DNA of 64,000 bases from an uncultured Paracoccaceae bacterium (GCA_947498415.1 CANMKB010000001.1:1-64000), one strand, 5' to 3'. Positions 44,672 to 62,736 are shown, counted from the first letter of the stretch. The notes: generated by a model from the letters alone, not told the origin. A program made the numbers and translations.

Positions 44672-44746
44672 GCTGCTGTAGCTCAGTGGTAGAGCGCACC
44701 CTTGGTAAGGGTGAGGTCGGGAGTTCAATCCTCCCCAGCAGCACCA
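44672..44746 (+). tRNA. tRNA-Thr (GGT), CCA present
   Basis: GCTGCTGTAGCTCAGTGGTAGAGCGCACCCTTGGTAAGGGTGAGGTCGGGAGTTCAATCCTCCCCAGCAGCACCA; anticodon loop TTGGTAA. Confidence 0.95.
44724..44746 (+). repeat. att direct repeat, tRNA side
   Basis: TTCAATCCTCCCCAGCAGCACCA, the 3' end of tRNA-Thr. Confidence 0.93.
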
Positions 44747-44803
44747 GAAAATATCCTTTGAGATCAATATAATACATGAAATCAAGGAGTTTCACTCATC
44801 ACT

Positions 44804-44849
44804 TGGGTTAGATTTTGTGTTAGGTTTTGTGTTAGGTGGCACTAACACA
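44804..44849. promoter_or_regulatory. putative integrase arm-site array (left end)
   Basis: TGGGTTAG 44804, TGTGTTAG 44816, TGTGTTAG 44828 in direct 12-bp steps, then inverted CTAACACA 44842-44849. Confidence 0.75.
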
Positions 44850-44870
44850 AAAACCCGAGTAGATGCCGAA

Positions 44871-46445
44871 ATGACCAAACTCCCCAAAGTCTCTGGCGCA
44901 CAACAACGTGGCGGCAAATACTATTTCAACCTGCACATTCCCGTGCAGCTTAGAGAACTGTACGGAAACAAAGCCGCCTTTCGCGACACCATGGGCACCA
45001 GTGACCCTAAAGAAGCTGAACGGAAGATCAGGCAGCAAAAGACAATCTTCGATCAGCAGGAAGCCGACAAGAAACGATCTGACGACAAGGCTCGACTTGC
45101 CAAGCTATTGACTGAGGATCAGCGAGTGAAACTAAAGAGCCTTGAACAATCCGGCGGACTTCTGAAACACATTTCTGACCTACGCGAAGTCGTAGCCTTT
45201 AACGCAGTTACGATGGGCGAAGATGACCGCGAAAGGTCAGATTTGGAGCAAACAATTGAGCATGCTCAAGCGGCATCTGATCACGAATTTGGAAACAGAG
45301 TCCTTGCGGAAATACGCGCCAGCAAACGCATTGCGGCCTCGATTGGGGAAAAAGTCCCACCACCAAGAAGTGGCCTTGATGAAGGAGTTATGGGCCTGCA
45401 CGATGTCGCCGAAAAATTTTTGGATGCGAACGAGTATACGATCCATAATAGGCAGAAGGTGCATTACTCGTTGCGCCGCTGGACTGAATTGCATGGCGAC
45501 ATCCCTTTGGAAAAACTGGAACGTCGCCATCTGAACGAATTTAACGAAGCCCTCAAAGAGCTACCCCCTGCCCTTGGGGACCACCGCAAATTGAGCTTTC
45601 AGAAATCAGTCGCCAAACGAAAACGCGATGGCAAGGAAGCGATCAGCTTCAAGTCGCGCGAAACCTACATATCCCACCTCAAGAGCCTAACGGCCTTCGC
45701 GCTGGACCCCATGGGGGAACTGTCGAGCGATCCCTTTGCCGGATATAAATTGATCAAACCAAAGGGAAAGCACAGTCACGCAATGGAAAAGGCAAGGAAA
45801 CCTTTTTCACCATCGCAATCACGCAGAATCCTAAACTTTGCAAAAAGCACATTCGATGCAAAAATCATGGACCACTGGATGCCGATATTGGCGGCTTATA
45901 CCGGTGCGCAGCAAGAGGAGCTAGCTCAACTAAGATTGGACAACATAGTTCTGATTAAGAGGCATTGGTGTATTCGCATCACTGATTTGGACCCGAAGCA
46001 AAAGGTCAAGAGCAAGCGCAGCATACGTACCCTGCCCGTATCACCTGTTTTGATTGATGCTGGCTTCTTGGAATATGCGAACCGCCGCCGGCACGCTGAC
46101 GCGACTTGGCTCTGGCAAGAAAGCTTCACAGACAAGCACAAGAATACGCGATTGCAAGACATACGCCCCGATAATCGGGGGCGCTTCGCGACAAATTTCG
46201 GGCAACGGTTTGCGCGTAAAGTTCGCGCCCCCTTAAATCTCACAGAACCGGGGATGACGTTTCACAGTTTCCGGCACTCTTGGGCAGACGCTGCTAGAAA
46301 AGCGAAATTGGACCCAGAAATACGCCGCAAGATAGCGGGACGACTTGAGGACTCCGACCCTGTAGAAGCGGACTATGGAGGCGATGACTTGCTTGACGAG
46401 AAGTTGGAAGCCCTAAACGCCGTTGCCCCCTTTGTTGCTAACTGA
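44871..46445 (+). CDS. int: tyrosine-type site-specific integrase
   Basis: Catalytic motifs TGAQQEELAQLRLDNI and FHSFRHSWADAARKAKLDPEIRRKIAGRLEDSDPVEADYGGD; N-terminal KVSGAQQRGGKYYFNLHIPVQL. Start at MTKLPK preferred, because the ORF-track start lies inside the arm-site array. Confidence 0.92.
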   Translation: MTKLPKVSGAQQRGGKYYFNLHIPVQLRELYGNKAAFRDTMGTSDPKEAERKIRQQKTIFDQQEADKKRSDDKARLAKLLTEDQRVKLKSLEQSGGLLKHISDLREVVAFNAVTMGEDDRERSDLEQTIEHAQAASDHEFGNRVLAEIRASKRIAASIGEKVPPPRSGLDEGVMGLHDVAEKFLDANEYTIHNRQKVHYSLRRWTELHGDIPLEKLERRHLNEFNEALKELPPALGDHRKLSFQKSVAKRKRDGKEAISFKSRETYISHLKSLTAFALDPMGELSSDPFAGYKLIKPKGKHSHAMEKARKPFSPSQSRRILNFAKSTFDAKIMDHWMPILAAYTGAQQEELAQLRLDNIVLIKRHWCIRITDLDPKQKVKSKRSIRTLPVSPVLIDAGFLEYANRRRHADATWLWQESFTDKHKNTRLQDIRPDNRGRFATNFGQRFARKVRAPLNLTEPGMTFHSFRHSWADAARKAKLDPEIRRKIAGRLEDSDPVEADYGGDDLLDEKLEALNAVAPFVAN

Positions 46446-46677
46446 CGGCGACGATCACCAAACAAACAGGTCGCCACACCAATCACCTGCCCGTTTGTGT
46501 GGATGGTACTGTCGCCCGCTTCGACGATGCCGAAGGTATCCAGCGTTTAGCGGCCCCCATACTAAGCTTTGAAATTTCTGCGCTGGCGTTTGAGCCCAGA
46601 GTGACCGATGCGGCGCTGTATTCCAATTACCGCTCTTGACACCGAGGACAAATAGCAACGGGTGAGTTGTAGCCGCA

Positions 46678-47175
46678 TTATCGCTCTTGGAACCGACCCG
46701 GTCCGATGCGCCACCTGACAATCAAGGCAATGGCAATACCAGCAAGGACAAACTGCAACGTATTTTGGGTAAGAACCCACCATCCATAAGATGTAAGGAT
46801 GCCGTCAACTGATCGGACAAAATCTCCCCCGCCAATTTGCGACTGGAAGTTCGGGTTTTGAGAAACCCGCCAGCCTTGGTATCGGCCAATGGCTATGCTT
46901 ATCGCCGCGAATAATACAGCGATGGCGCCACCCCAAAGACCTGCCGAAACCCAAGAAACGGGGTATTTCATTAGCCCTCGCAAGATTGGCGCTCCAATCA
47001 ACCAGCATGCACCATAAGCTACCGGCAATCCAAAGACAGCAATCCACGGCAAAGCAAACGGATTGTGCAACAACGAAGGAAGCGCCACCACGAACCAGCC
47101 AAGTAGGGCAGCAGAATTAACCGCTTTGCGATGTTCTTTTCTTGTGTAAGCTGTCGTCTCGTTCATCGAAAACAC
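46678..47175 (-). CDS. integral membrane hypothetical protein
   Basis: 165 aa with several hydrophobic segments (AALLGWFVVALPSLL, LWGGAIAVLFAAISIAIG, FVLAGIAIALIVRW). Confidence 0.6.
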   Translation of the reverse strand: MFSMNETTAYTRKEHRKAVNSAALLGWFVVALPSLLHNPFALPWIAVFGLPVAYGACWLIGAPILRGLMKYPVSWVSAGLWGGAIAVLFAAISIAIGRYQGWRVSQNPNFQSQIGGGDFVRSVDGILTSYGWWVLTQNTLQFVLAGIAIALIVRWRIGPGRFQER

Positions 47176-47693
47176 CTAGTTACCCATAAAATTTGTGTAC
47201 ACTATCCAAAGGGGGCTTTGAAGATGGTGTTGAGACGCGTGCGACAGCCCAAGTCTGCCAGACTTAGTTGGCTTTTCAGTGTGTATCGCGGCACACAGCC
47301 TATGCTGTTTGTTGATTTTAGAAACCGCAGATTAGAACTACATGCTTCAAAAGCCGACCTACGCGCATCCGCAGCGAAAACTAGCTCCGTCCGCACAACC
47401 GACCCTCATTGCAAGATCGCCTACTCACCTGCCAGTAATCAGCAACCCGCGCAGCCCAATCAATAGTTTGGCAGGCTGACAGGCACCTTCGCTTTCAAGT
47501 GTCCAAGATTCTAAGTCTGTGCAACCGAATGAGCTGATACTTGTCCTGACTGAAACAGGCCCGCGTTAGCGGGAAATCCTGCCCTATATTTTCTACTTTT
47601 CTATGACCCGTTTTCGTCCGTTCACTGGATTTTTTGGCCTAGTTGTGGTACAAAGAGCGTACCTTACCCTACCCCCGAAATCAGTGAGAACAC

Positions 47694-47951
47694 ATGACAT
47701 TTTCCCTAACTCGGGACGATATTTCCCGTTGTACAAACTCTGGACGCACACGCGTCCGTTCAATGATTAACACCCCTTTCAAGCTCCCTTTTCAGTCCGA
47801 CATGCCCGGTCCATCAGGTGGCGCTTCACGCGAACGATTTCGACTGAGCGACATCCTCGCCCGGATCAAAACCAAGGCGTGGTTCCGCCCTGAAATGGAA
47901 GCGATGCTTGCTGCGACCGATGCAGCCTACCGACAGGAACAACTTGCATGA
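47694..47951 (+). CDS. small hypothetical protein, possible HTH/excisionase-type DNA-binding protein
   Basis: 85 aa, MTFSLTRDDISRCTNSGRTRVRSMI...RERFRLSDILARIK; ATGA overlap with the next gene. Confidence 0.45.
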   Translation: MTFSLTRDDISRCTNSGRTRVRSMINTPFKLPFQSDMPGPSGGASRERFRLSDILARIKTKAWFRPEMEAMLAATDAAYRQEQLA

Positions 47952-48430
47952 ACCAAATCTCAATCCAAAAAGAAATCGATGCGGAAAACCGCCGCCAAAG
48001 CCGCATAGATGAGCAATTGGCGGTGACATTGCCGCACCAAATGAAACGCTATGAGGCAATTCAGCAGAAGACGGAAAACGCCCTCTACCGTGTGCATGGA
48101 AACCGACTGTCGCCGCAAGTGATTGACCGCATGGTAGCGGGGTTGATCCTTGAGCCATCAGTTTTGTGCTCGATTGGTTCCAGCGAAATCAATGAAATGC
48201 CTTCGGATAATATGGGTTGGGACCGAATGGCGCGTGATCTTGTCGAACGTGAGCCATTGGCACAGTTGAGCATTCAGCACAGCGATGCAGAATTGAAAGA
48301 GAAACTGCGCCAAGAGATCACCGCTGCAATTAATCCTAGCCAACGGCTGGCGATGGCACGATCTGGTGAACTTGATAACTATGTCGATCAACGTGTGACT
48401 GCCAAACTAGATGAGCGGGCTGGATTTTAA
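47948..48430 (+). CDS. hypothetical protein
   Basis: 160-aa ORF coupled to both neighbours by overlapping start/stop codons. Confidence 0.65.
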   Translation: MNQISIQKEIDAENRRQSRIDEQLAVTLPHQMKRYEAIQQKTENALYRVHGNRLSPQVIDRMVAGLILEPSVLCSIGSSEINEMPSDNMGWDRMARDLVEREPLAQLSIQHSDAELKEKLRQEITAAINPSQRLAMARSGELDNYVDQRVTAKLDERAGF

Positions 48431-48942
48431 TGTCTAGTGAGATTGCGACCGAACCGGGTTCTGAGCCACTCAAGAACAAGCGCTGGGAACAGTTCGCCAT
48501 CGCGAAGTCTAAGGGCCTCAACAACAAAGAGGCCTATAAAGCTGCCTTGCCCAAAGGTGTTGTGCAGTCCGATAACTCCCTACGCGTTTCAGGATCAAAT
48601 CTGTTCAAAAAACCAGAGGTCAAAACCCGCGTTTTTTGGCTGATGGATAAAGAGACAGTGAAACGCTCACGCAGCGATGCCACACCGTTCACTGAACAAG
48701 AGCTATTAGCGATCTGCCTTGAGGTCACTGAGGCCTTGGAAAAGGCCTTCTACGCGGCAGAGAAAGCGAGCGTCCCACCCCAATCCTTGGAGCGCCTCAA
48801 GGGCGTCTTGGCATCACACCTGTCGCGGCAGGCAACGCTTATTGACCAAGAGACCCCAGTGAAGTCTGACGAACTCCCTGCCGACATTGCGGCGATGATT
48901 ACTCGCATGGAAAATCTAGGTGGCTGTGCATGCCAACACTAA
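48430..48942 (+). CDS. terminase small subunit-like protein
   Basis: NKRWEQFAIAKSKGLNNKEAYKAA ... VSGSNLFKKPEVKTRV resembles the N-terminal HTH of Terminase_2-type small subunits (Q-F-A...A-Y..A...G..L...P.V..R). Confidence 0.55.
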   Translation: MSSEIATEPGSEPLKNKRWEQFAIAKSKGLNNKEAYKAALPKGVVQSDNSLRVSGSNLFKKPEVKTRVFWLMDKETVKRSRSDATPFTEQELLAICLEVTEALEKAFYAAEKASVPPQSLERLKGVLASHLSRQATLIDQETPVKSDELPADIAAMITRMENLGGCACQH

Positions 48943-49280
48943 AGCAATCCACAGCAGCGTCAGCTATCCGGCTTTTACACGTCAATTTGGACGATCTTCG
49001 GAGCTACGCGCTGGACTTTGATCCGCACCAAATTGATCGGCTTATTAAGTCAGCGGATTTGATTTCAGGACAATTGAAAAAGCTGTTCGAATACGTTGTG
49101 GAAACTGACGCGAATAACGCCCCGAAGCAACCGCCCGGTACGATAATCGACATAAGCGCCGTGTCGCGCTTCTTAGACTCTGTACAGGGTAATCACATCT
49201 GCGGACGTTGTGGGGGCCTCATAGCAGACCCTAGCACCTTTGGTGTCCATTCACAGCCTGACACAGACAACGACGTTTAG
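48930..49280 (+). CDS. hypothetical protein with CxxC motif
   Basis: 116 aa; ICGRCGGLIADPSTFGVH; overlaps the preceding gene by 13 bp. Confidence 0.55.
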   Translation: MPTLKQSTAASAIRLLHVNLDDLRSYALDFDPHQIDRLIKSADLISGQLKKLFEYVVETDANNAPKQPPGTIIDISAVSRFLDSVQGNHICGRCGGLIADPSTFGVHSQPDTDNDV

Positions 49281-49503
49281 AACGGCCTACCCTCCTCAGA
49301 ATTCGCGTGTGAGGTCTGGCTTCCCTCGCTCGCGAACGGCGCTGGTTCTCCTTTCGCTGCGCCTTGCCCCCGCCAGTTTCTTCGCCGAGCTGGCGGGCGG
49401 CTAAACAAAAGCCACACCACGCCATGGTGATCGACGAACGGCGATAACGAACCCAACCACCTCAACCCCGACTAAGAGGAATCCAAAAATGAAGACTTAA
49501 ATC

Positions 49504-49866
49504 ATGCAAAATCAACTTACACGCCCTCAAAAGGCAGAAGCCTATTTAGCACTCATTGGAGCGTTTGGGCCAGAATCCGAGCCTTTCGCGAATGCCATTT
49601 GCTTCGAGACTATCGACAGCAGCATAGGCCTAACGTTCACTCTCCACGAGGGGATCGCGTTTGCAGTCGAGACATCCGGCAAAGAGCGCCTGACCTTAGA
49701 CGTGTCGGAGATACTCGGATATGGGGCACAGGCTGTGACACGCGCGATGGCGATGGCAGGGTTCTTTCCCGTTGGCGACGGCGAAACGTTCACCAATTCC
49801 CCCGATGCAGCGAACACACACCGCATCAAGCTACCTCACGACCTAATCAGCCGTTGGTACGAATAA
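49504..49866 (+). CDS. hypothetical protein
   Basis: 120-aa ORF beginning MQNQLTRPQKAEAYLALIGAFGPESEP. Confidence 0.55.
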   Translation: MQNQLTRPQKAEAYLALIGAFGPESEPFANAICFETIDSSIGLTFTLHEGIAFAVETSGKERLTLDVSEILGYGAQAVTRAMAMAGFFPVGDGETFTNSPDAANTHRIKLPHDLISRWYE

Positions 49867-49932
49867 CGAAACAGCAATGGAGCGGGCAGTCATGCCCTTC
49901 CCGTTACCTTCTTTCATTTGGAGAAACCGCGA

Positions 49933-50235
49933 ATGGCAGGATTGCCAGAATACAAGATTGACCGCTTCGGGAATGTTTGGGGTGAGCTTAACAAGGCCAC
50001 AGGCGCGGCCCACATTCCTTGTGTAATCAAATGGGGTGACGACGACCGGAATGTTTTTCTGTGCGAAGACAAAGACGACCTTCGAACGATAATTCTTGCA
50101 GTAGCTAAAGAAAAAGATCACCGATTCAACCCAGAGGACGTGATCAAGCTCATGACTCAACCTGTATTAACACAGCTTGAAGTCACCAGCGGATTGCGAC
50201 AGTCGAGTATCGATGAGCGCTGGAACGTGTGGTGA
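49933..50235 (+). CDS. hypothetical protein
   Basis: MAGLPEYKIDRFGNVWGELNKATGAAHIPCVIKWG...; about 100 aa, internal start preferred over 49918. Confidence 0.5.
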   Translation: MAGLPEYKIDRFGNVWGELNKATGAAHIPCVIKWGDDDRNVFLCEDKDDLRTIILAVAKEKDHRFNPEDVIKLMTQPVLTQLEVTSGLRQSSIDERWNVW

Positions 50236-50596
50236 TCGTCAGAATTATGAATATTTATCATAATATTAATGAATGTCACTCATGTATAGAATGGCGTGAT
50301 GAATTTACCACAACATATGGTACGACAATGCGACCCAAAACAACATATTGTGTTTATAAATTGTATAGCTAGGTGGTAAATTAATCTTGCAAAGCCACTC
50401 GCAATATTGCAGCCACAAACCATCGACTCAACACGACTTAAGTGATAGGGTCGCGGACATAAGCAAAACGGGCCACCCCTTACTGCAAGATCATTGGCGT
50501 GATCTTACGGGCGACCCGTTCAAATTAACTGAGAAGAACCTAGCACAACCGGCAAAGTAGAGCAAGTTTTTCTCCCCAAGGAGCATAACAATTTAG

Positions 50597-53500
50597 ATGC
50601 ACAAACTCAATACCAACCCCGCCTGCGGGAACAATACCGGCTTGGCCAATGCAGCGCAAATTCCAACAATTGAAGCAATCCGCCAGCTATTCGACTTGGA
50701 CGGTACTAACGAACAAATCTTGACAGGATGCACCGCCTATATTGAGGCACACGGATATGACGACGCGCTGAAAGCGCTTCTGGATGGTTTCAATAAGATT
50801 GATGGTCGTGATTGGGCGATGATGCTGGAACAGTATGTGCCTGATACTGACGCGCGTAGCGCGGGACCTGCGCCTGAAATCCAGAAGATGAATGATGCCG
50901 ACCTCTTGGGCGAGGATCACCCAGAGATGCAAGAGTTATTGCAAAAGCCATTCGTCTTCATGACCGGCTCTATGTACGGACAGAAAGATCACCGCAACAC
51001 ACAGGACGGGAACTGGAATCGGGGCGAAATGCCGTTGGTACAGTGGATCGCTGGTGGCGATGAAGGTAAGACCCCTTGGGGATTAACTCGTCACCCAGTC
51101 GCGAAACGTAAAGAAGGCCCAGCAGTAGTTCTGGCAGATGCGCTGGACGGTGCCCGCAAAGATGCCGCCATTAAAACGATGTATGCCATCGGGCTGGACA
51201 TCGACTCCGGTGCTGCACTTGACGACGTACTGGTTACATTGGAGGAGAAAGGACTGTTCGCGGTCGTGTACACTTCTTTCCGCCACGGCACGACCGAGCT
51301 TGTGCTAATGCACGACGACATCATGCGTAAGCTGAAACTGGACAAGTCCCCGACGCGTGCGCAGATTCAAACTTATCTTCGCGAGCATCACAAAGATCGC
51401 TACGACGCCTCGTTTATTGATCAAATCAAAGTCGTGGATGCGCGAAAGCAAACACCTGATGGTTTGCGCACGATCCTAAAGACCCCGCCCCTTGATAAGT
51501 TCCGTGTGATTTTGCCTCTTTGGGAACCGGTGGAACTGGCTGATCTTGGGGCAACGGTTAATGACTGGAAAAATGTTTGGGCAGATGCCGTTACCGGCGT
51601 CGCGGTAAACACGCTTGGCGTCAACTTCGATGCAACATCTTGCGACGTGAATCGGCTTTTCTATGTTCCCCGACATCCCGCCGATGCAGAAGATTGGTAC
51701 TCTGCGATTGTCCAAGGCCGTCCACTGCGCTTCGAAGAGATCGAGCCATTCTCTAAGACCGCTTACGTTAAAGATCGTGACGCAGGCGATGCTTTCGCCC
51801 AAGCTGGCGGCGGCTCAGGCGGAACGGATACGCGAGAAGAGTTTTTAACGCCTTCTGGACGTAATTTGAACAAGTGGCACAACAAGCACAAAGATCGTTG
51901 GCTTGCGGCGGACGCAATCGAAACGTTCTGCCCGGACAAGGTTCGTGTCGCTGGTGGGGAAAAACCCGGCACAGTTCACTTAGAATGCCCTTTTGAGTAC
52001 ATACATTCTTCCGAAGGTGGCACCGCAACTATGGCGATGAACCCCGACGAAAACGAAATGGGCTACTGGACCATCTTCTGCAAGCACGACTCCTGTCAGG
52101 AGCGTGACAAACTTGAGTTCATCCAAGAGATGTTGGCGCAGGGCTGGTGTGAAGAAGATGTTTTGTGGGATGATGATTGGAACATCCCCTTACCTGACGA
52201 AGATTTAGAGGATGGCGAAAACGAATCCGAACACCACGTCTACAATCTCGATCCTGAAAAAGCGGCAGCAGCGGTAAATAAGGAGGGTATCGACAAAGGC
52301 ACGAGCGTAGAGAAAATTCGCGAGTTTCTGGGGCACTATGTCGAATGCGACTCCGTGACCAAGAACAACCTAACCGATGTGTTGGCGGGACCGTCGCGCG
52401 GTAAAGGTGTTGCCGCTCTATCCAACAAAGAAGTCTCAGAGATTTGGGCCGGTCTGGACAAGCAGGCGGCACGCAAGAAGATCGAAAAGGACGCCAAGAA
52501 GCGCGAGAAGTTAGATGCGCCTGACTATCTGCCATTAGAACAGGCGACCAAAAACACGGTTGAGAAAGCCGCCAAAGCTTCGAAATGGCTTCCCGAAGGC
52601 TTCACCTATCAAGACGGGTATTTTGGCAAACTTGTCACCGTTGGGAATGACCTGAAATTCAACCCAACGTGCAATGCCTTTGAGGTAGTCTATTGTGCGG
52701 ACGGCTCGAAAGGTCTGACGCGAACAAATCAATTGACCATTCGATACATGCACCGTTCTGAGAATTTGGGGATTGTGGAATCCACATTCCGCATCGGCGA
52801 CACGTATAAGGACCAAGGGGCACTGTTGGGCGACCTGCGCAACGAAGGCCTAGAGTTCTCACCTGATGCGCCTACTCAAGACATTCTGGCGCTCTTGCGG
52901 GCTGTATCGTCGGAACGCGAAGGGGTGTATCGGGCGCAGTCGGGATGGACCGATGCACGTGACGCATTCATCGCCCCAACCGGTGAAAGCATCAAGAAAG
53001 ACGACGATCCGCGCCTATACGTTTTGGAAAAGGCTATGCGGGTCTCTGGCAAAACCTGTGGCACTGTTGTTGAGTACGCAGGCGCTATGAACACAGCAAT
53101 TCGCGGTAAGAATGCGAAGCTGTTCCTTCCCGGTGCCCTATTGGGCGCAGTCGGCAATCTTGCGGATTTCATCAACACTGAACATGCGGTGATCATTGCC
53201 AACGAAGGCAAGAAGAACAGCGGTAAAACCACGTCTTTGAAAGCTGGTGTGTCGTTCTTTGCCGTCGCATCGGTTGAAGGCCTGATGTTTTCTGCAAACG
53301 GTACTGAAACCGCATTCGAAGCAATGGCGATGAAAGCATCTGGCGCAGCAATGGCACCAGATGACTCCGGTGCATCAAAGCGCACAGCGGATGACGAACA
53401 GCGCCAAATCTACCAGTACGCAAACCGCATGGGCCGTGGTCGCGGGACCACCACAGGTGGGCTACAGGAGCTTAATAGCTGGAATGGTGCTATGGGTATC

Positions 53501-54415
53501 AGCACCGAGCGAGGCTTGCTGACACGCCTTCAAGCAGAGGGCGCGGATACAAAGAGCGGGGTGCAATCGCGGGTGTTCACTGTCAGATATGATGCAGCCG
53601 AAGTGCTTGATAAAACCGCTGACGCGGACCTACTGAAAGCCTATGAAGTTATCGCCCATGGCGGTGTGTATGGCGTGGCATGGAAGCCATTTGTTACCCG
53701 ATTGTTGGAATTGGGTGTTAAAGTGGTGAAGGGGCGCGTCAGCGCCTATGAGAAGGACTGGGGACACGATGCCCATGGCGGTGAACGTGTCGTGACGACT
53801 GGTGCCCTACTCGCTGTAGCCTCTGAGATTATGCAGGAAGTGAAGTTGTTCCCAGCCAACGATTACGATGTGAAATGGGAAGACGGCAAACCGAAGGTTG
53901 ACGACGATCTTTCGAATGAAGGCGACGGCGGGCTCAACGTTCAGGTGCTACTGAAAGAGGCGCTGGATGATACAATCGCGCAACGTGCCAATGTGCTTGA
54001 TACAGGACAACAAGCATCGGATAGCCTGCGCATTGAAATCATCAAAGCACTGAATAGTCGCCGGATCGTAGATTGCGCCATGGAATGCGAGCACTACGCT
54101 GGGCCTCTAGGCTACTATAAATTGGACGAGAACGCGCCCAATGACGAAGACATCGATGACGGAACGGGCATTTCGAAGAGCATGTTGCGCCGCCAGTATC
54201 ATCTACCATTGGATCGCTTGAATGAACTGGGGGTAAAGATCGAGCTTGCGGGATTGGTGGCACAACTGCGCGAAGTGGGTGCAATCATCGAGCCAACAGG
54301 CAACAAGCGGTATGCCAAGAAAGGAACTTGGCCCAACCCACCGGGCGAAGGTGGCGACATCCCTTCCCTGCGGATTAAAGGTGAATGGGTCCACGGGACC
54401 ACGGCGGCGGATTGA
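50597..54415 (+). CDS. large DUF927-type primase/helicase-like protein (1272 aa)
   Basis: AVIIANEGKKNSGKTTSLKAG (Walker A-like), APDDSGASKRTADDEQRQIYQYANRMGRGRGT, NSWNGAMGISTERGLLTRLQAEGADTKSGVQSRVF, as in DUF927 helicases. Confidence 0.75.
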   Translation: MHKLNTNPACGNNTGLANAAQIPTIEAIRQLFDLDGTNEQILTGCTAYIEAHGYDDALKALLDGFNKIDGRDWAMMLEQYVPDTDARSAGPAPEIQKMNDADLLGEDHPEMQELLQKPFVFMTGSMYGQKDHRNTQDGNWNRGEMPLVQWIAGGDEGKTPWGLTRHPVAKRKEGPAVVLADALDGARKDAAIKTMYAIGLDIDSGAALDDVLVTLEEKGLFAVVYTSFRHGTTELVLMHDDIMRKLKLDKSPTRAQIQTYLREHHKDRYDASFIDQIKVVDARKQTPDGLRTILKTPPLDKFRVILPLWEPVELADLGATVNDWKNVWADAVTGVAVNTLGVNFDATSCDVNRLFYVPRHPADAEDWYSAIVQGRPLRFEEIEPFSKTAYVKDRDAGDAFAQAGGGSGGTDTREEFLTPSGRNLNKWHNKHKDRWLAADAIETFCPDKVRVAGGEKPGTVHLECPFEYIHSSEGGTATMAMNPDENEMGYWTIFCKHDSCQERDKLEFIQEMLAQGWCEEDVLWDDDWNIPLPDEDLEDGENESEHHVYNLDPEKAAAAVNKEGIDKGTSVEKIREFLGHYVECDSVTKNNLTDVLAGPSRGKGVAALSNKEVSEIWAGLDKQAARKKIEKDAKKREKLDAPDYLPLEQATKNTVEKAAKASKWLPEGFTYQDGYFGKLVTVGNDLKFNPTCNAFEVVYCADGSKGLTRTNQLTIRYMHRSENLGIVESTFRIGDTYKDQGALLGDLRNEGLEFSPDAPTQDILALLRAVSSEREGVYRAQSGWTDARDAFIAPTGESIKKDDDPRLYVLEKAMRVSGKTCGTVVEYAGAMNTAIRGKNAKLFLPGALLGAVGNLADFINTEHAVIIANEGKKNSGKTTSLKAGVSFFAVASVEGLMFSANGTETAFEAMAMKASGAAMAPDDSGASKRTADDEQRQIYQYANRMGRGRGTTTGGLQELNSWNGAMGISTERGLLTRLQAEGADTKSGVQSRVFTVRYDAAEVLDKTADADLLKAYEVIAHGGVYGVAWKPFVTRLLELGVKVVKGRVSAYEKDWGHDAHGGERVVTTGALLAVASEIMQEVKLFPANDYDVKWEDGKPKVDDDLSNEGDGGLNVQVLLKEALDDTIAQRANVLDTGQQASDSLRIEIIKALNSRRIVDCAMECEHYAGPLGYYKLDENAPNDEDIDDGTGISKSMLRRQYHLPLDRLNELGVKIELAGLVAQLREVGAIIEPTGNKRYAKKGTWPNPPGEGGDIPSLRIKGEWVHGTTAAD

Positions 54416-54515
54416 ACTATACCTATAATTGTACTTCTAATTGATTGATAGAGGCGGGCGTTAGCCCGCCTTATCTATTTTAAGGCACCCACCACCTATT
54501 TTCAGTAAAAATCCC

Positions 54516-54828
54516 CGTTGGACAGTGTCCAACGAGTGCCCAACGGCTGCCCAACGATTTTTCCCTTTATAATCAACATTCAACGCCGCAATTGGACAAA
54601 TTGGACCCGTTGGACACGAAAATAGAGAGGCCTCCCCGAAACGGAAAAAATGCGCACTGGTTCGCGAGTGCAGGGTGTAAAAAAAAAACGATTCAGCGGG
54701 GCGCTCTTATATTTCTGTCCAATTTGTCCAATGTGTCCAACGAGCATCGAAAACCCCTTATTTATAAGGCTAAAGTCGTTGGACAACCGTTGGATTCTCG
54801 TTGGACACCGTTGGACAATTGTCCAACG
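54516..54828. repeat. iteron-like array of CGTTGGACA 9-mers (candidate replication origin)
   Basis: About 15 exact or near copies in both orientations, including CGTTGGACA-G-TGTCCAACG (54516-54534), two three-copy 9-bp tandem arrays (54591-54617, 54716-54742) and the perfect 20-bp palindrome CGTTGGACAATTGTCCAACG (54809-54828). Confidence 0.75.
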
Positions 54829-55322
54829 AAATGGCGTTTTTAGGGGTATTTTTGCTCAAAAGTCGAAAGTTGGTTTGTTATTTACCCCCTCAAATCCGGG
54901 AAAATACCCCAAGTTGAGGGGGTAGATTACAAACGGACTCGCACCACTTTGAGCACCGGGCAGTTTTTCGGGATCATCCCACCAATCGCGTTAATACCCC
55001 CAAGATTTGGATTAGTCTGGCATTCGCAGGTTAACGGCAAGCGCCGCCACCTTTCGCCAACTCTCTCCTAGGCTGCATTGATGAGAAAGTTACGCATCCG
55101 CCTTATTTCATTTAACGAACCCACCCCCACGACAAAATAACACCAAAGCCTCCATACCCCCGCCAATCGCGAAAACACGCCCCACGTCGGGCGCACGGCT
55201 CGACCCGGTCGAAATTTCTCTGAATTAGCAGGCACAAACATATCGCGCCCAACTCCCGCAAGGGTTGCATAAGGGATCAATTCCTTTAGTCATGGAATTG
55301 AGCAGTACCAAAGGACTTCGGA

Positions 55323-55709
55323 ATGTCAGACCAACTCGTTAAATATCTTCGCGCACAGGCGGAACAATTCTCCCAATATGCTGCGGAAATCTCTAAGGGC
55401 GAATTTCAAGACGCACAGCTATCTGAACTGGCACCGCCATTAATTGAAATGGTGGCCAAACTATTTGGTAAAACATCGGAAGAGTTTAGCGAGTGGGCAG
55501 ACAACCTCGACCCAGTAACTGCGGCGAAGAAGGTTGCGGAGATAGAAGCAAAATTCGCCACTATCATGGGCGAAAGAGACAAATCATATCCGCCTGAATC
55601 CGTCGAAGCAGAGAATTCAGGCGAGGAAATCCCAATGGTCAAATCGCAAGCCACTTATGTCTCGATCAATCCAGCCTACATGAGGCTGCATCCTGAAAAG
55701 TTTTCGTAA
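55323..55709 (+). CDS. hypothetical protein
   Basis: 128-aa acidic ORF MSDQLVKYLRAQAEQFSQYAAEISKGEF. Confidence 0.6.
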   Translation: MSDQLVKYLRAQAEQFSQYAAEISKGEFQDAQLSELAPPLIEMVAKLFGKTSEEFSEWADNLDPVTAAKKVAEIEAKFATIMGERDKSYPPESVEAENSGEEIPMVKSQATYVSINPAYMRLHPEKFS

Positions 55710-55817
55710 ATCGAGCAACGAGATAGCCAAAGACGATTATGAACAAATGTAGCCCGCGAATGTTTAGTTTTGGCGGGGGAAAAGACCTATACCCAAATGA
55801 AATAAACCGGTTCGATA

Positions 55818-56468
55818 ATGAAATTACGAGATAGACTAAAATCAATAAGACGCGGCGATAAAGATAGGATCACATTGGCAGCAAAGTGCTTTGTTAGACC
55901 GGTTTCGCGCTACAAGATACTAAATGAAAGAATTGAAGGCCTATATTCTGACCTTACAGATGAAGTCTACGTTATCGAATTAACATCGAAGACTGACAAA
56001 ACAGACAAAGAAATCGTGTTTTTGGGTAATGTCGCTGGGCCACACCTACTTAAACTTGCGAGACAAGAAGCACCGCCGTGCTTTAATATCGTGCGCTCGA
56101 CCACGATGAGCGAAACCCCATTGACCGTTGGAACTCGTAGTTCACCACCAAAGCCATATAGCCCATTCAACAAAGAGCTTTATACAGCAGTCTTGTTGCT
56201 TATGCTGCAAAAGAAGTGGTCCGCAAAAAATCTTCGCGAAGACGGTAAGCCAATTTCCGATTGTCTGACAAAATTGAGCTGGAATGGCGACGAGGACCTG
56301 CCGGATTATTGGGCCAGATCGATAAACACAATATACATCAGATATAAGACCAGTGCTCAAGCAATGCTGAACGAACTACAAAGGAATACCGGAAACATTC
56401 GACCGTTGAAGTTTCCACTTTTGCAAAAGGCACTACGGAAAGACGGCGTTGAGGACATACGCCTGTAG
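55818..56468 (+). CDS. hypothetical protein
   Basis: 216-aa ORF MKLRDRLKSIRRGDKDRITLAAKCFVRPV; no motif recognised. Confidence 0.6.
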   Translation: MKLRDRLKSIRRGDKDRITLAAKCFVRPVSRYKILNERIEGLYSDLTDEVYVIELTSKTDKTDKEIVFLGNVAGPHLLKLARQEAPPCFNIVRSTTMSETPLTVGTRSSPPKPYSPFNKELYTAVLLLMLQKKWSAKNLREDGKPISDCLTKLSWNGDEDLPDYWARSINTIYIRYKTSAQAMLNELQRNTGNIRPLKFPLLQKALRKDGVEDIRL

Positions 56469-56531
56469 TTTGTACCAGCCTCCTTTGAGCAAGCAGCAGC
56501 ATCGCCCATTTCCACCGAGCTTAGTCTAGTA

Positions 56532-56648
56532 CTGTCCGATTTGAGTAAAAGCACACACGACATCTGAAAATCGCCCAAATGTGTCAGATTTAACTTATCG
56601 AATCACTTATCGGACAGTAAGATAAATCCAGACACTCAAATCTGACAG
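56532..56648. promoter_or_regulatory. putative res-like recombination/regulatory site for the adjacent resolvase
   Basis: CTGTCCGATTTGAG (56532), GTGTCAGATTTAAC (56581), inverted CTTATCGGACAG (56606), inverted ACTCAAATCTGACAG (56634-56648), just upstream of the resolvase gene. Confidence 0.6.
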
Positions 56649-56659
56649 AAAGGGCTTTT

Positions 56660-57232
56660 ATGGGAGAGATTATCGGATACGCTCGCGTTTCCTCGCGCAC
56701 ACAGTCATTAGATATTCAACGTGACGCCCTGACGGGCGCAAATTGCACTAAGATATTCGCAGAGAAGTTCACGGGCACACGCACCACCGGTCGCGTGGAA
56801 CTAGAAAAGATGTTGGAGTACGTGCGGGAAGGTGATGTTGTATGCGTCACCAAACTGGATCGTCTTGCACGGTCGTTGCCTGATCTACTCAAGATCACTG
56901 CCAAGCTGGATACCAAGAACGTTGAGTTGCGCTGCTTGGATCAAGCAATTGATACAACAACGCCAGAAGGTCGCATGACCTATCAGATTCTGGGTGCAGT
57001 CGCCGAATTTGAAACGTCCATTCGCAAGGCGCGTCAACGCGAAGGCATTGATGCAGCGTTAGCCAAAGGACCCGACAGCCCGTTCAAAGGGCGTCCAGCT
57101 ACCATCGAATACAACAAAGTAGCGGCTGCGGTCGAAAAACACGGGAACAAAGCCCAAGCTGCACGGTCGCTGGGCATTAGCCGTGATAGCCTCTACCGCG
57201 TTTTGAAGGCTGGACCTGCTACGCAGGCCTGA
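56660..57232 (+). CDS. serine recombinase, resolvase/invertase family
   Basis: IIGYARVSSRTQSLDIQRDAL, VCVTKLDRLARSLPDLLKI, GAVAEFETSIRKARQREGI, C-terminal HTH AQAARSLGISRDSLYRVLK. Confidence 0.95.
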   Translation: MGEIIGYARVSSRTQSLDIQRDALTGANCTKIFAEKFTGTRTTGRVELEKMLEYVREGDVVCVTKLDRLARSLPDLLKITAKLDTKNVELRCLDQAIDTTTPEGRMTYQILGAVAEFETSIRKARQREGIDAALAKGPDSPFKGRPATIEYNKVAAAVEKHGNKAQAARSLGISRDSLYRVLKAGPATQA

Positions 57233-57566
57233 CGCAGTCCTCTAGCGACAACGACCAACATGCAAACAATCTTACTCATCTTCATTCTATTTATTTAGCA
57301 ATCCTCCTTCGGAGACTTGTCTTCGAAACAAGGCTTCTGGTGATCGCGACCAACACCCAATCGCGTTTCGCAAGGAACTCTGTTCATCGATTCACGGAAT
57401 AGATTGAAAGTGTGATCGCTTGTTGAGCTTTCAGGTTGATGTGTGCCGCCGTTAGGCGGTCCCCCTCTGCCAACCCTGATACCTTGGTCGCGCCGCCTGA
57501 GCCGTCACGAACCCAATCTATACCAACACCCCAGCACCGCCCTGACTGCACCCTGTCACGTGTCGT

Positions 57567-57605
57567 GATTGATCTTGTTTGATGATGAATCATCAGCGAT
57601 CAATC
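57567..57605. other. nested stem-loop
   Basis: GATTGATC...GATCAATC 8-bp stem enclosing TGATGAT-ga-ATCATCA. Confidence 0.5.
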
Positions 57606-57887
57606 GCCTGACATACTGATACTACGTTAAAAAATCGAGGGTCCGCTGACGGCTACCCCACTAGGCCTATCGTGTGCCCCCAGTTGCTGTCCTGATGTAC
57701 TGGACCACAGGATCAACAAGCTAACCCCCAAATGAAAAACAGGGGTACCTTTTCGCCAACATCGTTTCCGTTCCAGACGCTAAGCGCGTCCCGAAAAGAT
57801 TCAAAATTTTCTCAAGGTGTTAATACCGCCAAAAAATCGTCAGATTCAAAGTCCAAAACCGCAGCACGAATTTACATTGAGGTAATT

Positions 57888-58214
57888 ATGCAAAAAGCAC
57901 TCATTTCTCTGCCCCTACTCGCAGCACTTTCAGCGTGTGTTGAACCAGTCATCCAGACACAAGCAGGCTACCCGCCGGTTGCCCCTGAACAAGTCCAAGT
58001 TTCGTTTGCAAAGTCACCGACATGCGCCAATGCGCAAGAAATTGGCTACATGCCACAAGTCGGCTCGAACAAATACGCACAGGATCGCGCGATCAATCAG
58101 ATAAGAACGCAAGCGGGCGCACGGGGTGCAAACCTCGTTCTACTTGAAACTCAAGCCACGAGCTTGTTGGGCGATATGCTCATCAACGCACGACTTATTC
58201 GCTGCCCAGTCTAA
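57888..58214 (+). CDS. putative lipoprotein (DUF4156-like)
   Basis: LLAALSACVEP lipobox; NKYAQDRAINQIRTQAGARGANLVLLET; start at the internal Met after GAGGTAATT. Confidence 0.65.
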   Translation: MQKALISLPLLAALSACVEPVIQTQAGYPPVAPEQVQVSFAKSPTCANAQEIGYMPQVGSNKYAQDRAINQIRTQAGARGANLVLLETQATSLLGDMLINARLIRCPV

Positions 58215-58250
58215 CCCAATTTTAGCACTCAACCACATTACGAGTACCAA

Positions 58251-58883
58251 ATGGATTACATGTTTACCCTGATCAAATTTTCAGTTCTGGCGATGATTGC
58301 AATTGCCGTGCTGTACATCATCTTTGAATTTTCACGCCAAAATAGGATACAAGCATCTGCCGAAAATCTTGTTGATCGCGCCCTAAACAAGTTTCCTACC
58401 TACAGAAACAAACCCGCCGTGTTGGGCGAAGAACTTGTTCTATTGATGGATGAAAGCAAACAGACTGCGCTTGTGGCGACTGCCGAAGGCAACGCGAAAG
58501 AAATCCCGTTCGCAGACTTTACCGGAATTGAAGTTCTCGAAGATGGTCACACTGTTTCAGAGACTCGCCGAAAAGGAACACTCGGAAGAGCTGCCGCTGG
58601 TGGGCTACTAGCAGGTGGTGTCGGCGCTGTTCTTGGTGCAGTCTCCGCTGGCAGTGAAACGCGCCACAAGGAGGTCGTTTCCAACATCACGGTCGCTGTC
58701 AGAACAGAAGACGCAAGCTTCCCCGTTCTTGCTTGGTGCACATTCGCGCCCACTATTGGCTTGGAGCACATGAGCGATGTCGAGGTGCAAATGCAGCGCA
58801 GAGCAGCAAATGACTTTGCTGCTCAGTTTGCTCCGATTTTTGCAGTCAACGCCAAGTCAGACCCGAATCTCAACACAATCTAA
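58251..58883 (+). CDS. membrane-associated hypothetical protein
   Basis: 210 aa; N-terminal TM FSVLAMIAIAVLYIIFEF and Gly-rich hydrophobic AAAGGLLAGGVGAVLGAVSAG. Confidence 0.6.
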   Translation: MDYMFTLIKFSVLAMIAIAVLYIIFEFSRQNRIQASAENLVDRALNKFPTYRNKPAVLGEELVLLMDESKQTALVATAEGNAKEIPFADFTGIEVLEDGHTVSETRRKGTLGRAAAGGLLAGGVGAVLGAVSAGSETRHKEVVSNITVAVRTEDASFPVLAWCTFAPTIGLEHMSDVEVQMQRRAANDFAAQFAPIFAVNAKSDPNLNTI

Positions 58884-58958
58884 TCGGGGTCAAGAAAACA
58901 GAAAGCTCTACGCTTATCTCGTTAGCAATCAACATTCTGGCACCGTTTATTGCGCGAT

Positions 58959-59279
58959 ATGAGTTCAGAATTCTACTTACCGAGCAAACTATACGCTCAA
59001 GACATGCATCTTGGAGAAACTGCAACCCTTGCAGCTTCTTCATTCATTGTCGTGCTGGCAGAACCGGGTGCGGGCAAGACCAAATTGATGGAGAGCTTTG
59101 CGCTCCGTCTCAAGTCCGAGCTTATTACAGCAGGCCGGATTGCGTTTAGCGGTGCACCACAAAAGGGCCAACCTCTTTTGATCGATGCCTACGATGAACT
59201 CGCCAAAATCGACGCGGAGGTGACCCATCCCCTTTTACTGAACAGCTCTGAAATTTCCAATAACGGGCATATGATCTGA
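58959..59279 (+). pseudogene. truncated P-loop (STAND/NACHT-like) NTPase N-terminal fragment
   Basis: VVLAEPGAGKTKLMESFA (Walker A) and PLLIDAYDELAKID (Walker B/DEL), then the reading frame collapses where the convergent gene begins (59235). Confidence 0.6.
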
Positions 59280-60260
59280 CATTTCAAAATCTGTATCTGT
59301 TGTACTGACAGAGACAACTTCCACGTTTGGCGACACAACGAAGCCGTCAATAATAGTGAGATAGTTTTCTCCACGGACAAAGGCTTGGTTTACAGTCCGA
59401 ACCGTAGGGAGCGAAGTATCAATCGCGAGCTTCCAGCCCTCGGGAATACTCTCTTGCGGAAAACGATGGATCCAAAACAGGTCTTCATCAGACGTTTGAT
59501 GCGGAAACGCTGTTTCGGCCAACTCCATGTTCCAATCCCCGCCTATGACGACATGAAAACCGGCCTCATAAAGACTTTTAGCATAGCTAAATACGGAATC
59601 TATCTGTTGGCGTCGCAAATCGCCTCCATCATCGAAGGCTGAAAGATGAATATTTATAAAGGCCCATTCAATACTTTCAGTAGCGCCCGGCATCTTCAGG
59701 ACCTGCATACCATACTGACGATTTAGGAAGCCAAACAGAGGTTCTGGCTCTCCCACAATGGGAAATAGTTCGCCAGTAGTAGCCTTCAGATCAGTAGTAA
59801 TGACGGTCCCATGTTTCAGCCTAATGGGCCACGGCAGAAGCTGTGAAGATATATCTGGACGCCACCAGAAAACATTAGATCCAGCCGTGTTTTCAAGAGG
59901 TGTTGCTACCGACTTCCATAGTGAAAGAGGTCCTGAATAAGAGACTTCTTGAAAAAATTGAACGTTAGTTGCAAGCTGACCTGCAACTTCAGTTATTTGC
60001 TCAATGTTCTTATCAACGATGGCCCTAGAAGGGGGAAATAAGTTCTCACCCCCATCGACAGCAAAATCTGACTCTCGACCGAGCCCTGCATACCCCAAAT
60101 TCCATGTACCCACAGAAACAGTGTCTGGCATCCGCATTTTAGCTCGAGAGGCGCTACTAAAATCGACTGTCCTCGCTGAAAGCACCGCGCCGCGATTCAC
60201 AACTGTAACAACGATGCCATACAGTACGATGGCACCAAAAATGATCAAAGCCAGCTTCAT
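59235..60260 (-). CDS. membrane-anchored endonuclease/exonuclease/phosphatase (EEP) family protein
   Basis: N-terminal TM MKLALIIFGAIVLYGIVVTVV; EEP motifs GTWNLGY, FFQEVS, NIHLSAF, GGDWN, IDGFVVS, SDHMPVIG. Confidence 0.82.
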   Translation of the reverse strand: MKLALIIFGAIVLYGIVVTVVNRGAVLSARTVDFSSASRAKMRMPDTVSVGTWNLGYAGLGRESDFAVDGGENLFPPSRAIVDKNIEQITEVAGQLATNVQFFQEVSYSGPLSLWKSVATPLENTAGSNVFWWRPDISSQLLPWPIRLKHGTVITTDLKATTGELFPIVGEPEPLFGFLNRQYGMQVLKMPGATESIEWAFINIHLSAFDDGGDLRRQQIDSVFSYAKSLYEAGFHVVIGGDWNMELAETAFPHQTSDEDLFWIHRFPQESIPEGWKLAIDTSLPTVRTVNQAFVRGENYLTIIDGFVVSPNVEVVSVSTTDTDFEMSDHMPVIGNFRAVQ

Positions 60261-60342
60261 ATTTGTATCCTCATTGCAAGCAAGTACCTGCTATCTTCTT
60301 TTGGATGGCATTTGGGATCTTGGCCTTACGCCACTCATCCAC

Positions 60343-61680
60343 CTAGCCCGGTTTCAGCTTAGAATTTTCGAGAGCTTTGCTACGTTCGCCGTCTCTATCG
60401 CGTCGCTTATCAATAATCCAGCCTGCGGCGCCTAATGCAAGCAATAGCCCACCCCGATCATTGGTCAATGAGATCATAAAACCTGTCAATCCGCGTCGTT
60501 CTGTCAAGTCAAGGTATAGATCATTGAAGCGTTGAAGCATAATCCATCCTCCGCTTGCAATCTGATCTCGGCTTGCGTCGAGGGCGCTAAGAGCGCCCCC
60601 AAAAAAACCATCATAGACAAAAAAGTGCACAGACCATGCATAGAACGCTATACAGCCGATAGATAGCCACAAAAGCACATCAAATGATCCTAAAGCGCTC
60701 TCCTCGTAGGCTTGTCTGATAGGCGTGTGTTTCACAACATATTGTGTGCCAAAACTGCAAAATACTAACAGAACTAGAGTATTGATCTGATCAACCATAA
60801 ATGAAGCACCTTCCCGAACCTTGCTATAGATTTGCTCGGTGAGAACCATTTTTGCTTCCGGGGAGATATTACCTATGTTGAGGCTAACAAATAAATTATC
60901 TAGTTGTAATTTCACTTCTTGGTAGTCCTGAAACTGTTCAAAGGTTTGAGCAATAACAAGCGCAACAATCATGATTACAGCTGAAAAATTAGTGATGCTG
61001 TAGATTGTGTACGGAACATAACCTCTAGCTAAACGTTTCGCAAAAATAACGCGCTTCTTAACAACACAATTGTTTTCGTCTCTAATGACGCAGTTGTCAT
61101 CGCGCCTACACGTGTAAAATTCATACGCCAAGACAATTAAGCAGACAGCTCCAAATAGACCTATTGCAGGCCATTTATAGCTCGTAATAAGCTTCAAAAT
61201 GCCAACATCTTCTGTGACTAGATTAACTACCAGCAGAATGGTTAAAACCATAGAGAGCGCAGAGATTTCACCATACAAACCTGACTTTGGTGGCGTTAAA
61301 ATAGGTCGTACCCGGCGCTTTTTTGCATCAAGATCACCTTTTATCGCGAACTTGGAGATCCACGCTCGTCCTCCAAAATCATAAGCTAAGAAGGTGGAAA
61401 GAGCCCCAATATTAAGCGCTACAGCTATAATAAAAAGATCAACATCCTCTGTCAGAAAAGTAACTGTCACTAAAATGACAAGGAACGCGGATAGAGCAAT
61501 TATCTCGTGGTGTAGTCCTTGCTTTGGATCAAGCGCGATTGATGACTTTTGACTACCATCTTGGCCGAACGAGTTTCTAATCGCGAGTACCGAGAGCCTG
61601 ATAAAGCGACTTACTTTGTAAACCCAGAAAGTAGAAAGAGCTCCAATACTCAATACTGATGCTATGGTAACAAAATCCAC
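60343..61680 (-). CDS. polytopic membrane protein, co-directional with the EEP gene
   Basis: 445 aa with many hydrophobic segments (IIALSAFLVILVTVTFL, EISALSMVLTILLVVNLV, FGAVCLIVLAYEF, FDVLLWLSIGCIAFYAWSVHFFVY); 82 bp upstream of the EEP gene. Confidence 0.65.
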   Translation of the reverse strand: MDFVTIASVLSIGALSTFWVYKVSRFIRLSVLAIRNSFGQDGSQKSSIALDPKQGLHHEIIALSAFLVILVTVTFLTEDVDLFIIAVALNIGALSTFLAYDFGGRAWISKFAIKGDLDAKKRRVRPILTPPKSGLYGEISALSMVLTILLVVNLVTEDVGILKLITSYKWPAIGLFGAVCLIVLAYEFYTCRRDDNCVIRDENNCVVKKRVIFAKRLARGYVPYTIYSITNFSAVIMIVALVIAQTFEQFQDYQEVKLQLDNLFVSLNIGNISPEAKMVLTEQIYSKVREGASFMVDQINTLVLLVFCSFGTQYVVKHTPIRQAYEESALGSFDVLLWLSIGCIAFYAWSVHFFVYDGFFGGALSALDASRDQIASGGWIMLQRFNDLYLDLTERRGLTGFMISLTNDRGGLLLALGAAGWIIDKRRDRDGERSKALENSKLKPG

Positions 61681-62248
61681 TTTTCATGCCTACCACTTAG
61701 AACTTTCGACAAAAGTCCTCCACCACAAACCGAAGTTCAAGGAAAAACTTGTAGTACAATTGGCTTAATTTTCTGGTTTCAGAGCAAGTGCTATACTAAC
61801 GTTTCTAAAATTTTTGACGGAGAAGCTTCCATCCCCTCACGCAATTTATTCAGTATGCCACTTACCTGCAGATTACTTTAAACTTTTACATAACTCATAG
61901 CGTTTCGAAATTATCCTCTCTATAGAACAAAGTCCCTCATCAAGCCTAGTTTTCTGGAGAGTCTTAAGCGTCCAATATTCTAACAGTCTGTTCAAAAACG
62001 GCCGGTCTACCGTAAGCGGACATTCAAATTTTACGCTGTGGCATCCAGCCTTGGAGTAAAGAGGCAAAAGCGATTGTCTGCTTTGGGCTGGGAGCGGTCA
62101 TCTGGTAAATTTGGAATGGCGTTAACTCGTGGACGAAATTGCGGAGCAACTGCGAAAATATGCACAGACTTTGCACACGCTTTGCACAAAATTAAAATCT
62201 AGCCAACCGCAGCATGAGTAACACCTTGGATTCACTAAGTTTTAAAAA

Positions 62249-62290
62249 GGGCGGTCGAATAGATCGACTTTCGAGTCATCTCGACCGCCC
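62249..62290 (-). terminator. strong terminator-like hairpin on the minus strand
   Basis: GGGCGGTCGA ... GACT-TTCG-AGTC ... TCGACCGCCC, preceded on the + strand by TTTTAAAAA (T-rich tract on the minus strand). Confidence 0.65.
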
Positions 62291-62607
62291 AACGACAGAA
62301 CAGTAATTGATATACGAAATGCAGGCGGCTGATCGCATTGAAGCGCAACAATAAACTCTCTTTGGCACAAGGTCGCAAATCCGCTGTTCCTAGAAGTGCA
62401 AATTGGAAACGCCAATGGCACAATTTAAACAACACCATATTGACGTAGAAGATCACGGCAGGCCACGACCGATCAAAGGGGAGACGGCAAATTGCTTCCT
62501 AACTATGATCGATAAATCCATCCGGATGGTTACGTTGCTTACTCCTTCCTAGCCACAAGAAACGTAGAATCGGCAAAACCAATAGTGATGCACAAAACCG
62601 ATTTTTC

Positions 62608-62653
62608 TGTGTTAGGCATTGTGTTAGCTTTTGTGACACGCGAGACTAACACA
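62608..62653. promoter_or_regulatory. putative integrase arm-site array (right end)
   Basis: TGTGTTAG 62608, TGTGTTAG 62620, degenerate TGTGACAC 62632, inverted CTAACACA 62646-62653; same 12-12-14 spacing as the left end. Confidence 0.75.
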
Positions 62654-62713
62654 CAATTGAATTACCCTTTACTAACAACGCACTAGTGAATTTTTCGCTA
62701 AAGTATTGGAGAT

Positions 62714-62736
62714 TTCAATCCTCCCCAGCAGCACCA
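62714..62736 (+). repeat. att direct repeat, distal side
   Basis: TTCAATCCTCCCCAGCAGCACCA, identical to the tRNA-Thr 3' end. Confidence 0.93.

Follow-up and report, generated by a model that had tools for sequence, protein, structure and literature searches.

A probable satellite-type integrative element in tRNA-Thr of a Paracoccaceae bacterium, with CbK-like siphophages as likely helpers

An 18.0-kb insertion in a threonine tRNA gene of an uncultured Paracoccaceae bacterium raises two questions, namely what kind of mobile element it is, and by what means it travels. The insertion lies in a stretch of 64,000 nucleotides (GCA_947498415.1 CANMKB010000001.1:1-64000; the whole stretch is called the window here). 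We consider it probable that it is a phage satellite-type integrative element of Rhodobacteraceae, the likely helpers of which are large virulent CbK-like siphophages (the DSS3P8/MD18/RcXuper group). The genes for copying DNA and for packaging that it shares with these phages, together with the short tape-measure genes of sister elements, suggest that it travels by hijacking them.

The limits of the element are sharp. A perfect 23-bp direct repeat, TTCAATCCTCCCCAGCAGCACCA, has only two copies in the window, at 44724-44746 and 62714-62736 (shuffles of the sequence gave 0 copies), and the 17,990 bp between the repeat starts give the predicted size of the element and its circle. The left copy completes the tRNA-Thr(GGT) gene, of which the whole genome holds a single copy plus one orphan 26-bp tRNA end; an Rfam scan detected no RNA besides this tRNA. 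A reading made from the sequence alone (the sequence-only reading) had proposed precisely these ends, and comparison with related genomes bears it out: the same-genus genomes G003, G004 and G008 hold the empty site, in which the right-flank sequence stands directly behind the tRNA, and in G003 the right-flank homology restarts at the spacing predicted for a clean empty site. The tyrosine integrase, which that reading placed about 120 bp inside the tRNA side, has its ATG at 44871, ~125 bp inside the element, and is 58% identical to the integrase of a Citreimonas element in the same tRNA. A boundary signal absent from that reading is TGTGTTAG, of which all six copies in the 64 kb lie at the element's ends, two direct and one inverted per side; these sites resemble integrase arm-type sites and may serve as such.

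44672-44746, + strand: tRNA-Thr(GGT), attachment gene, 3' end forming attL (ARAGORN, repeat)
44724-44746, + strand: attL core, 23-bp direct repeat (repeat search)
44816-44849, no strand assigned: putative left arm-type sites TGTGTTAG, at 44816+, 44828+ and 44842- (motif search; tandem repeat)
44871-46445, + strand: tyrosine integrase, DUF6538 + Phage_integrase (domain matches, alignment of relatives)
62608-62653, no strand assigned: putative right arm-type sites TGTGTTAG, at 62608+, 62620+ and 62646- (motif search)
62714-62736, + strand: attR core, orphan 23-bp tRNA 3' end (repeat search, genome search)

The genes by which the element is connected to a particular phage group are those for replication and for a small-terminase-like (TerS-like) protein.

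48430-48942, + strand: TerS-like protein (family profile match to DSS3P8 gp206)
50597-54415, + strand: replication protein of 1272 residues, with an N-terminal AEP primase-polymerase and a C-terminal DUF927/SaPI-like helicase
54514-54830, no strand assigned: iteron cluster CGTTGGACA, 8 copies on both strands (repeat search)

Residues 81-632 of the replication protein share 45% identity with the DSS3P8 phage protein gp116. Its primase domain is 45-51% identical to those of CbK-like Roseobacter phages, the best matches in the phage collection being 147-kb Roseobacter siphophages, which have been placed with the CbK-like phages (MD18 paper, PMC7643831). When a nine-row primase alignment was used to search IMG/VR, phage contigs and one isolate-derived contig were returned, with no free satellite particle genome among them; the contigs that share the DSS3P8 gene neighbourhood encode primase domains 58-70% identical to that of the window, the highest value belonging to phage contig L118. 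Queried with the replication protein by itself, with the tape measure of a sister element or with a six-row alignment, IMG/VR yielded nothing usable, and a first scan of genome contigs with the single replication protein gave no match. In a 41-row primase tree, the window primase groups with the domains of three phage contigs (support 100/100), and nine changes between the labels phage and element are needed over the tree, at least seven of them being forced by well-supported branches. A single phage clade was rejected on the first primase tree (p-AU 0.00016); the deep branches of the primase trees are long and uncertain. The predicted primase fold matches the AEP domain of the cyanophage S-2L PrimPol (E 1.8e-4), and the DxD and zinc-binding motifs are kept. 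The C-terminal helicase is profile-similar to the SaPI protein 8tch (E 2.6e-9), and this half varies among elements: it is of the DUF927 type in the window, and the protein of the Citreimonas element (G057) is phage-like over 990 residues (54%). The iteron cluster spans ~0.3 kb directly behind the replication gene and is a putative replication origin. An origin shared with the phages was considered and is unsupported, because the iteron motif is absent from the phage stretches that were searched.

Plain tblastn of the window TerS-like protein against phages gave no match, and profiles were therefore needed. The phrog_51 TerS family is matched by three of five TerS-like proteins of the element family, and the family profile hits the small terminase of Pam5, a solved structure (E 1.6e-5). 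A profile built from six window-type proteins, from which the phage-like copies had been left out, has a sole match among 1652 open reading frames (ORFs) of CbK-like phages, namely DSS3P8 gp206 (E 2e-8), whose gene lies directly before that of the annotated large terminase (TerL), gp207. In two other elements, L140 (Ruegeria sediminis) and L141 (Antarcticimicrobium), TerS shares 36% identity with gp206 along its length (E about 1e-27), and its gene follows a tape-measure gene. Foldseek with the TerS model gave nothing significant; its top hit, to the DNA-binding domain of the SF6 small terminase (prob 0.84, E 2.3), gives weak support to the TerS identity of the modelled protein. Judged by the profiles, the window protein is a remote homologue of gp206, and its gene is a candidate for redirecting helper packaging, a predicted activity.

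Is the window element an isolated case? Related elements in other genera were recovered by integrase and replication-protein searches, and 32 of 397 Rhodobacteraceae genomes match the replication profile, about 16 of them in a way that covers the primase region. In eleven relatives, repeats of a tRNA 3' end mark the boundaries, 12.9-25.0 kb apart, and further bounded ones were also found; the ends of some relatives from named genomes are provisional. The family inserts into tRNA-Thr, -Leu, -Phe, -Gly, -Pro and -Cys, the Citreimonas element (G057 = L133) and the G255 element occupying the same tRNA-Thr as that of the window. A module of integrase, AlpA-like protein, orf160, TerS, replication protein and resolvase is shared. 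Closest to the window is element L129, in the Rhodobacterales metagenome-assembled genome DOLJORAL78, in which the genes follow the same order: AlpA-like, orf160, TerS (43%), orf116 (45%), orf100, replication protein and resolvase (81%). The AlpA-like protein gave no profile match, and both its assignment and its L129 homologue rest on inspection.

47694-47951, + strand: putative AlpA/excisionase-like DNA-binding protein of 85 residues, first gene of the conserved module (inspection)
47948-48430, + strand: conserved module protein of 160 residues, homologues in G314, G254 and L134 (homology)
48930-49280, + strand: module protein of 116 residues with a Cys motif, conserved in G190 and L129 (homology)
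49504-49866, + strand: unnamed module protein of 120 residues (ORF call)
49933-50235, + strand: module protein of 100 residues, 31% homologue in L129 (homology)
56660-57232, + strand: serine resolvase, conserved in the family, 81% in L129 and 63% in G190 (domain match, homology)

Ten relatives (G057, G056, G433, G278, L134, L135, L137, L138, L140 and L141) encode a tape-measure protein. That of L141 is a piece of 508 residues, and the other nine are full ORFs of 862-1127 residues, some with over-extended start codons; phage tape measures have 1815-1909 residues, so the sister versions are about half as long. Their similarity to the phage proteins is concentrated in the first ~100 and the last ~400 residues, and much of the phage middle is unfilled. 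One element, L138, encodes in addition a tail-completion/Neck1 homologue that shares 60% identity with gp041 of DSS3P8.

These results bear on the class of the element. The integrase, TerS-like gene, primase/helicase and serine resolvase listed in the sequence-only reading are all confirmed by domain or homology matches. With its own integrase and att sites, its own replication module (primase-polymerase/helicase and iterons) and an incomplete virion gene set from which capsid, portal and TerL are missing, the window element shares these features with phage satellites. Searches of its ORFs against Pfam and PHROGs gave no match to portal, capsid, TerL or tail genes, as a prophage would have, nor to a relaxase or conjugation genes, as an integrative conjugative or mobilizable element would have; the earlier preference for a satellite-like element over either of these is supported. 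Its description as free of structural genes holds for the window copy and fails for the family, in which relatives carry a tape measure and, once, a tail-completion/Neck1 protein. Among the PHROG families listed (the 25 commonest of 62) for 87 ORFs of at least 150 residues from the eleven bounded relatives, there is no capsid, portal or TerL; the families are integrases, resolvases, methyltransferases, primases and families without function.

The remaining genes of the window element lie mainly in its right part, where the segment at about 60-62.7 kb has a lower GC content.

46678-47175, - strand: putative membrane protein, cargo without family match (ORF call)
55323-55709, + strand: protein of 128 residues without assigned function (family scans)
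55818-56468, + strand: protein of 216 residues without assigned function (family scans)
57888-58214, + strand: small lipoprotein (homology)
58251-58883, + strand: putative membrane protein with weak matches to phage families without function, phrog_888 (PHROGs)
58950-59279, + strand: N-terminal stub, 109 residues, of an EruA-like NACHT antiphage ATPase (NF058535, E 4.9e-17)
59235-60260, - strand: cargo protein of 341 residues with endonuclease/exonuclease/phosphatase-like (EEP) motifs by inspection, without profile match
60343-61680, - strand: multi-pass membrane protein of 445 residues, cargo, in the low-GC segment (GC profile, homology)

The protein at 55323-55709 matched tape_meas_nterm with an E of 0.032, under the cut-off, and this was treated as chance. 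The lipoprotein is 64-69% identical in elements G056 and G278, and in G278 it adjoins the tape-measure gene; it could be a surface or superinfection factor. The NACHT stub breaks off after ~97 residues, with opposite-strand genes in its place, and intact homologues of ~1345 residues occur in G177 and G115. At 59235-61680, a low-GC pair consists of the EEP-like protein, which has an N-terminal hydrophobic stretch, and the multi-pass membrane protein. In G224 and G189, EEP relatives (38%) have no membrane gene of this kind beside them in the flanks examined, and the idea that the pair forms a two-gene defence unit was dropped on that ground. We regard 58.9-61.7 kb as a putative antiphage cargo slot, now holding the truncated NACHT gene and two genes without assigned function. 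The cargo region of the relatives is likewise a probable defence-gene slot: their cargo includes a DarT-type toxin (L105:580-1527), a type I restriction-modification (RM) specificity subunit (L107:798-2204), a SIR2-like protein (L102:10844-11740) and a DNA methyltransferase (L089:2959-4272). The 25-kb G045 element (L048, L056) has cytochrome-c-like, CBS-domain and cation-transporter-like cargo by inspection, unlike other members.

Could such an element spread without a satellite life cycle? A self-replicating, integrative plasmid-like island that is moved by generalized transduction, natural uptake or a conjugative helper, and that only swaps replication genes with phages, would account for a window copy without any structural gene, and defence cargo and insertion in a tRNA are compatible with an island as well. 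Jumbo phages are on record as transducing islands that bear an integrase, are integrated by tmRNA and have no known transfer genes (PMC12595487). However, the TerS of the element and the tape-measure and tail-completion genes of its sisters point to the building of particles, and all of them match one phage group; we therefore consider such an island unlikely, while giving it more weight than the other alternatives. It is more improbable still that the element is mainly a defence island, with TerS and a short tape measure that interfere in a dominant-negative manner with the packaging and tails of CbK-like phages. Many relatives do carry defence cargo, with the EruA stub, DarT, SIR2, the type I RM specificity subunit and the DNA methyltransferase as examples, and the Rta protein of PLE targets the helper tape measure (PMC12987554); against this, an element with a replication protein, iterons, a resolvase and att sites is by implication a mobile replicon, and the full-length short tape measures, in which both conserved termini are kept, have the look of functional proteins and not of inhibitory fragments. 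A decayed prophage would explain the integrase, the TerS-like gene and the small size, and is very improbable given that at least ten elements, independent of one another and alike in size and module, occupy different tRNAs, that long ORFs are intact, and that the scans gave no capsid, portal or TerL remnants (for the relatives, among the families listed).

The satellite interpretation, which we prefer, also has evidence that weighs against it. The window TerS alone fails to reach gp206 (E 0.8), so that the family profile is needed; the exchange of primases could by itself be gene swapping without packaging; and a single weak structural match could hide among the PHROG families of the relatives beyond the 25 listed. 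The window copy has no tape measure in the PHROGs scan of its ORFs, and none was found elsewhere in its genome; the idea of tail-length control rests on the sister elements. In box I of the window integrase, the catalytic Arg is replaced by Gln (TGAQ), the Arg being kept in the other eight of the nine integrases compared, which suggests that the window copy is inactive and not excisable by its own integrase. The element is possibly trapped for this reason, and the Gln codon may reflect either an immobile copy or an assembly error at that base. The boundaries, empty sites, gene content, homologies and interleaving of phage and element primases are shown, whereas the helper, induction, excision, replication, packaging and tail building are inferred from them; a resident helper cannot be checked, because CbK-like phages are virulent.

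On the satellite interpretation, the element would reside in tRNA-Thr until a CbK-like phage infects the cell, upon which the AlpA-like protein and the integrase would excise it. The primase-polymerase/helicase would then copy it from the iteron origin, the resolvase would split multimers, and the element TerS would steer the helper TerL towards element DNA, with which helper particles would then be filled. Many sister elements would add their half-length tape measure, and one of them also its tail-completion protein, giving chimeric particles with shorter tails, and the window copy, having no tape measure, would use helper tails. Scaled from the PLE satellites of Vibrio cholerae, in which 95 residues correspond to about 10 nm, a tape measure with 700-1,000 residues fewer would shorten the tail by roughly 70-110 nm. 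That a widespread alphaproteobacterial family parasitises CbK-like siphophages in this way, with repeatedly acquired primase-polymerase, TerS and half-length tape measure, the last producing visibly shorter chimeric tails, is a broader claim towards which we lean only slightly.

How does the family compare with known systems? The PLEs of Vibrio cholerae, with helper ICP1, resemble it in size (about 18 kb), in having a large virulent helper and in a satellite tape measure that gives chimeric tails (PMC12987554); they have another host class and helper, and were compared by description. The PLE11 tape measure differs by only 95 residues from that of ICP1 and is 20% identical to it, whereas those of the sister elements match the phage termini with identities of up to about 50% and have roughly half the length. 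PLEs are called 'the first family' with a tape measure that builds chimeric tails, and putative tmp genes are reported in PLE-like elements and cf-PICIs (PMC12987554). The definition of a PICI combines att sites, exclusive genes, induction by a phage and packaging (PMC6092414). The likeness to PICIs noted in the sequence-only reading stands for the anatomy (integrase, AlpA-like regulator, primase-helicase with iterons, TerS without TerL, defence cargo, and a helicase profile-similar to 8tch) and does not extend to the proteins: PICI-specific proteins and Stl were not recognised, the primase is of the CbK-phage AEP family, and the probable helper is virulent. No PICI model was matched in the Pfam, NCBIfam, PADLOC and PHROGs scans, which did not include dedicated PICI models. 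Phage structural genes, which a PICI family should lack, are absent from the window copy, but sisters carry tape measures. Since the proteins are not recognisably those of PICIs and the likely helpers are virulent CbK-like phages, the element is not filed as a PICI. PICMIs are marine Vibrionaceae satellites of virulent phages that also have int, alpA and prim; they differ in being minimal (six genes in the prototype), in lying at fis and in their DUF3987/DUF5906 primases (PMC10803314), the window element having instead tRNA-Thr as its site and an AEP + DUF927 protein. VEIMEs and tycheposons are described as marine integrative elements carried in virions (PMC10803314), which gives a likeness by description. 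The CbK-like siphophages (DSS3P8, MD18, RcXuper, RpAliso) are the apparent source of, or partner for, the primase-polymerase, TerS and sister tape-measure genes, and are set apart by a complete virulent phage genome of 147 kb, in which capsid, portal and TerL genes accompany that of a tape measure of 1,815-1,909 residues. The family works like PLE, PICI and PICMI, and is filed in none of them. Satellites of Rhodobacteraceae or of CbK-like phages were not described in the literature searched, which was largely without subscription papers, and novelty is claimed only against that literature.

For the phages, the homologies suggest functions for unnamed genes of DSS3P8 (KT870145.1): an AEP primase-helicase for gp116 (L054), TerS for gp206 (L155) and tail completion/Neck1 for gp041 (L057). 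For the bacteria, a Rhodobacteraceae-wide family appears to be tied to one cultured, virulent phage group. According to a 2024 paper, PLE alone preceded PICMI as a satellite family with virulent helpers (PMC10803314), and the remodelling of tails by a satellite was demonstrated in 2026 for PLE only (PMC12987554). Members occur in cultured type strains of Citreimonas, Gemmobacter, Ruegeria and Silicimonas, among them Citreimonas salinaria DSM 26880, Gemmobacter aquatilis DSM 3857 and Ruegeria sediminis, and the phages DSS3P8, MD18 and RcXuper are in culture; tail-length control and helper specificity are therefore testable. If our interpretation is true, these elements would add one more family to the satellites of virulent phages, and would be the second of them, PLE being the first, that is open to tests of tail remodelling.

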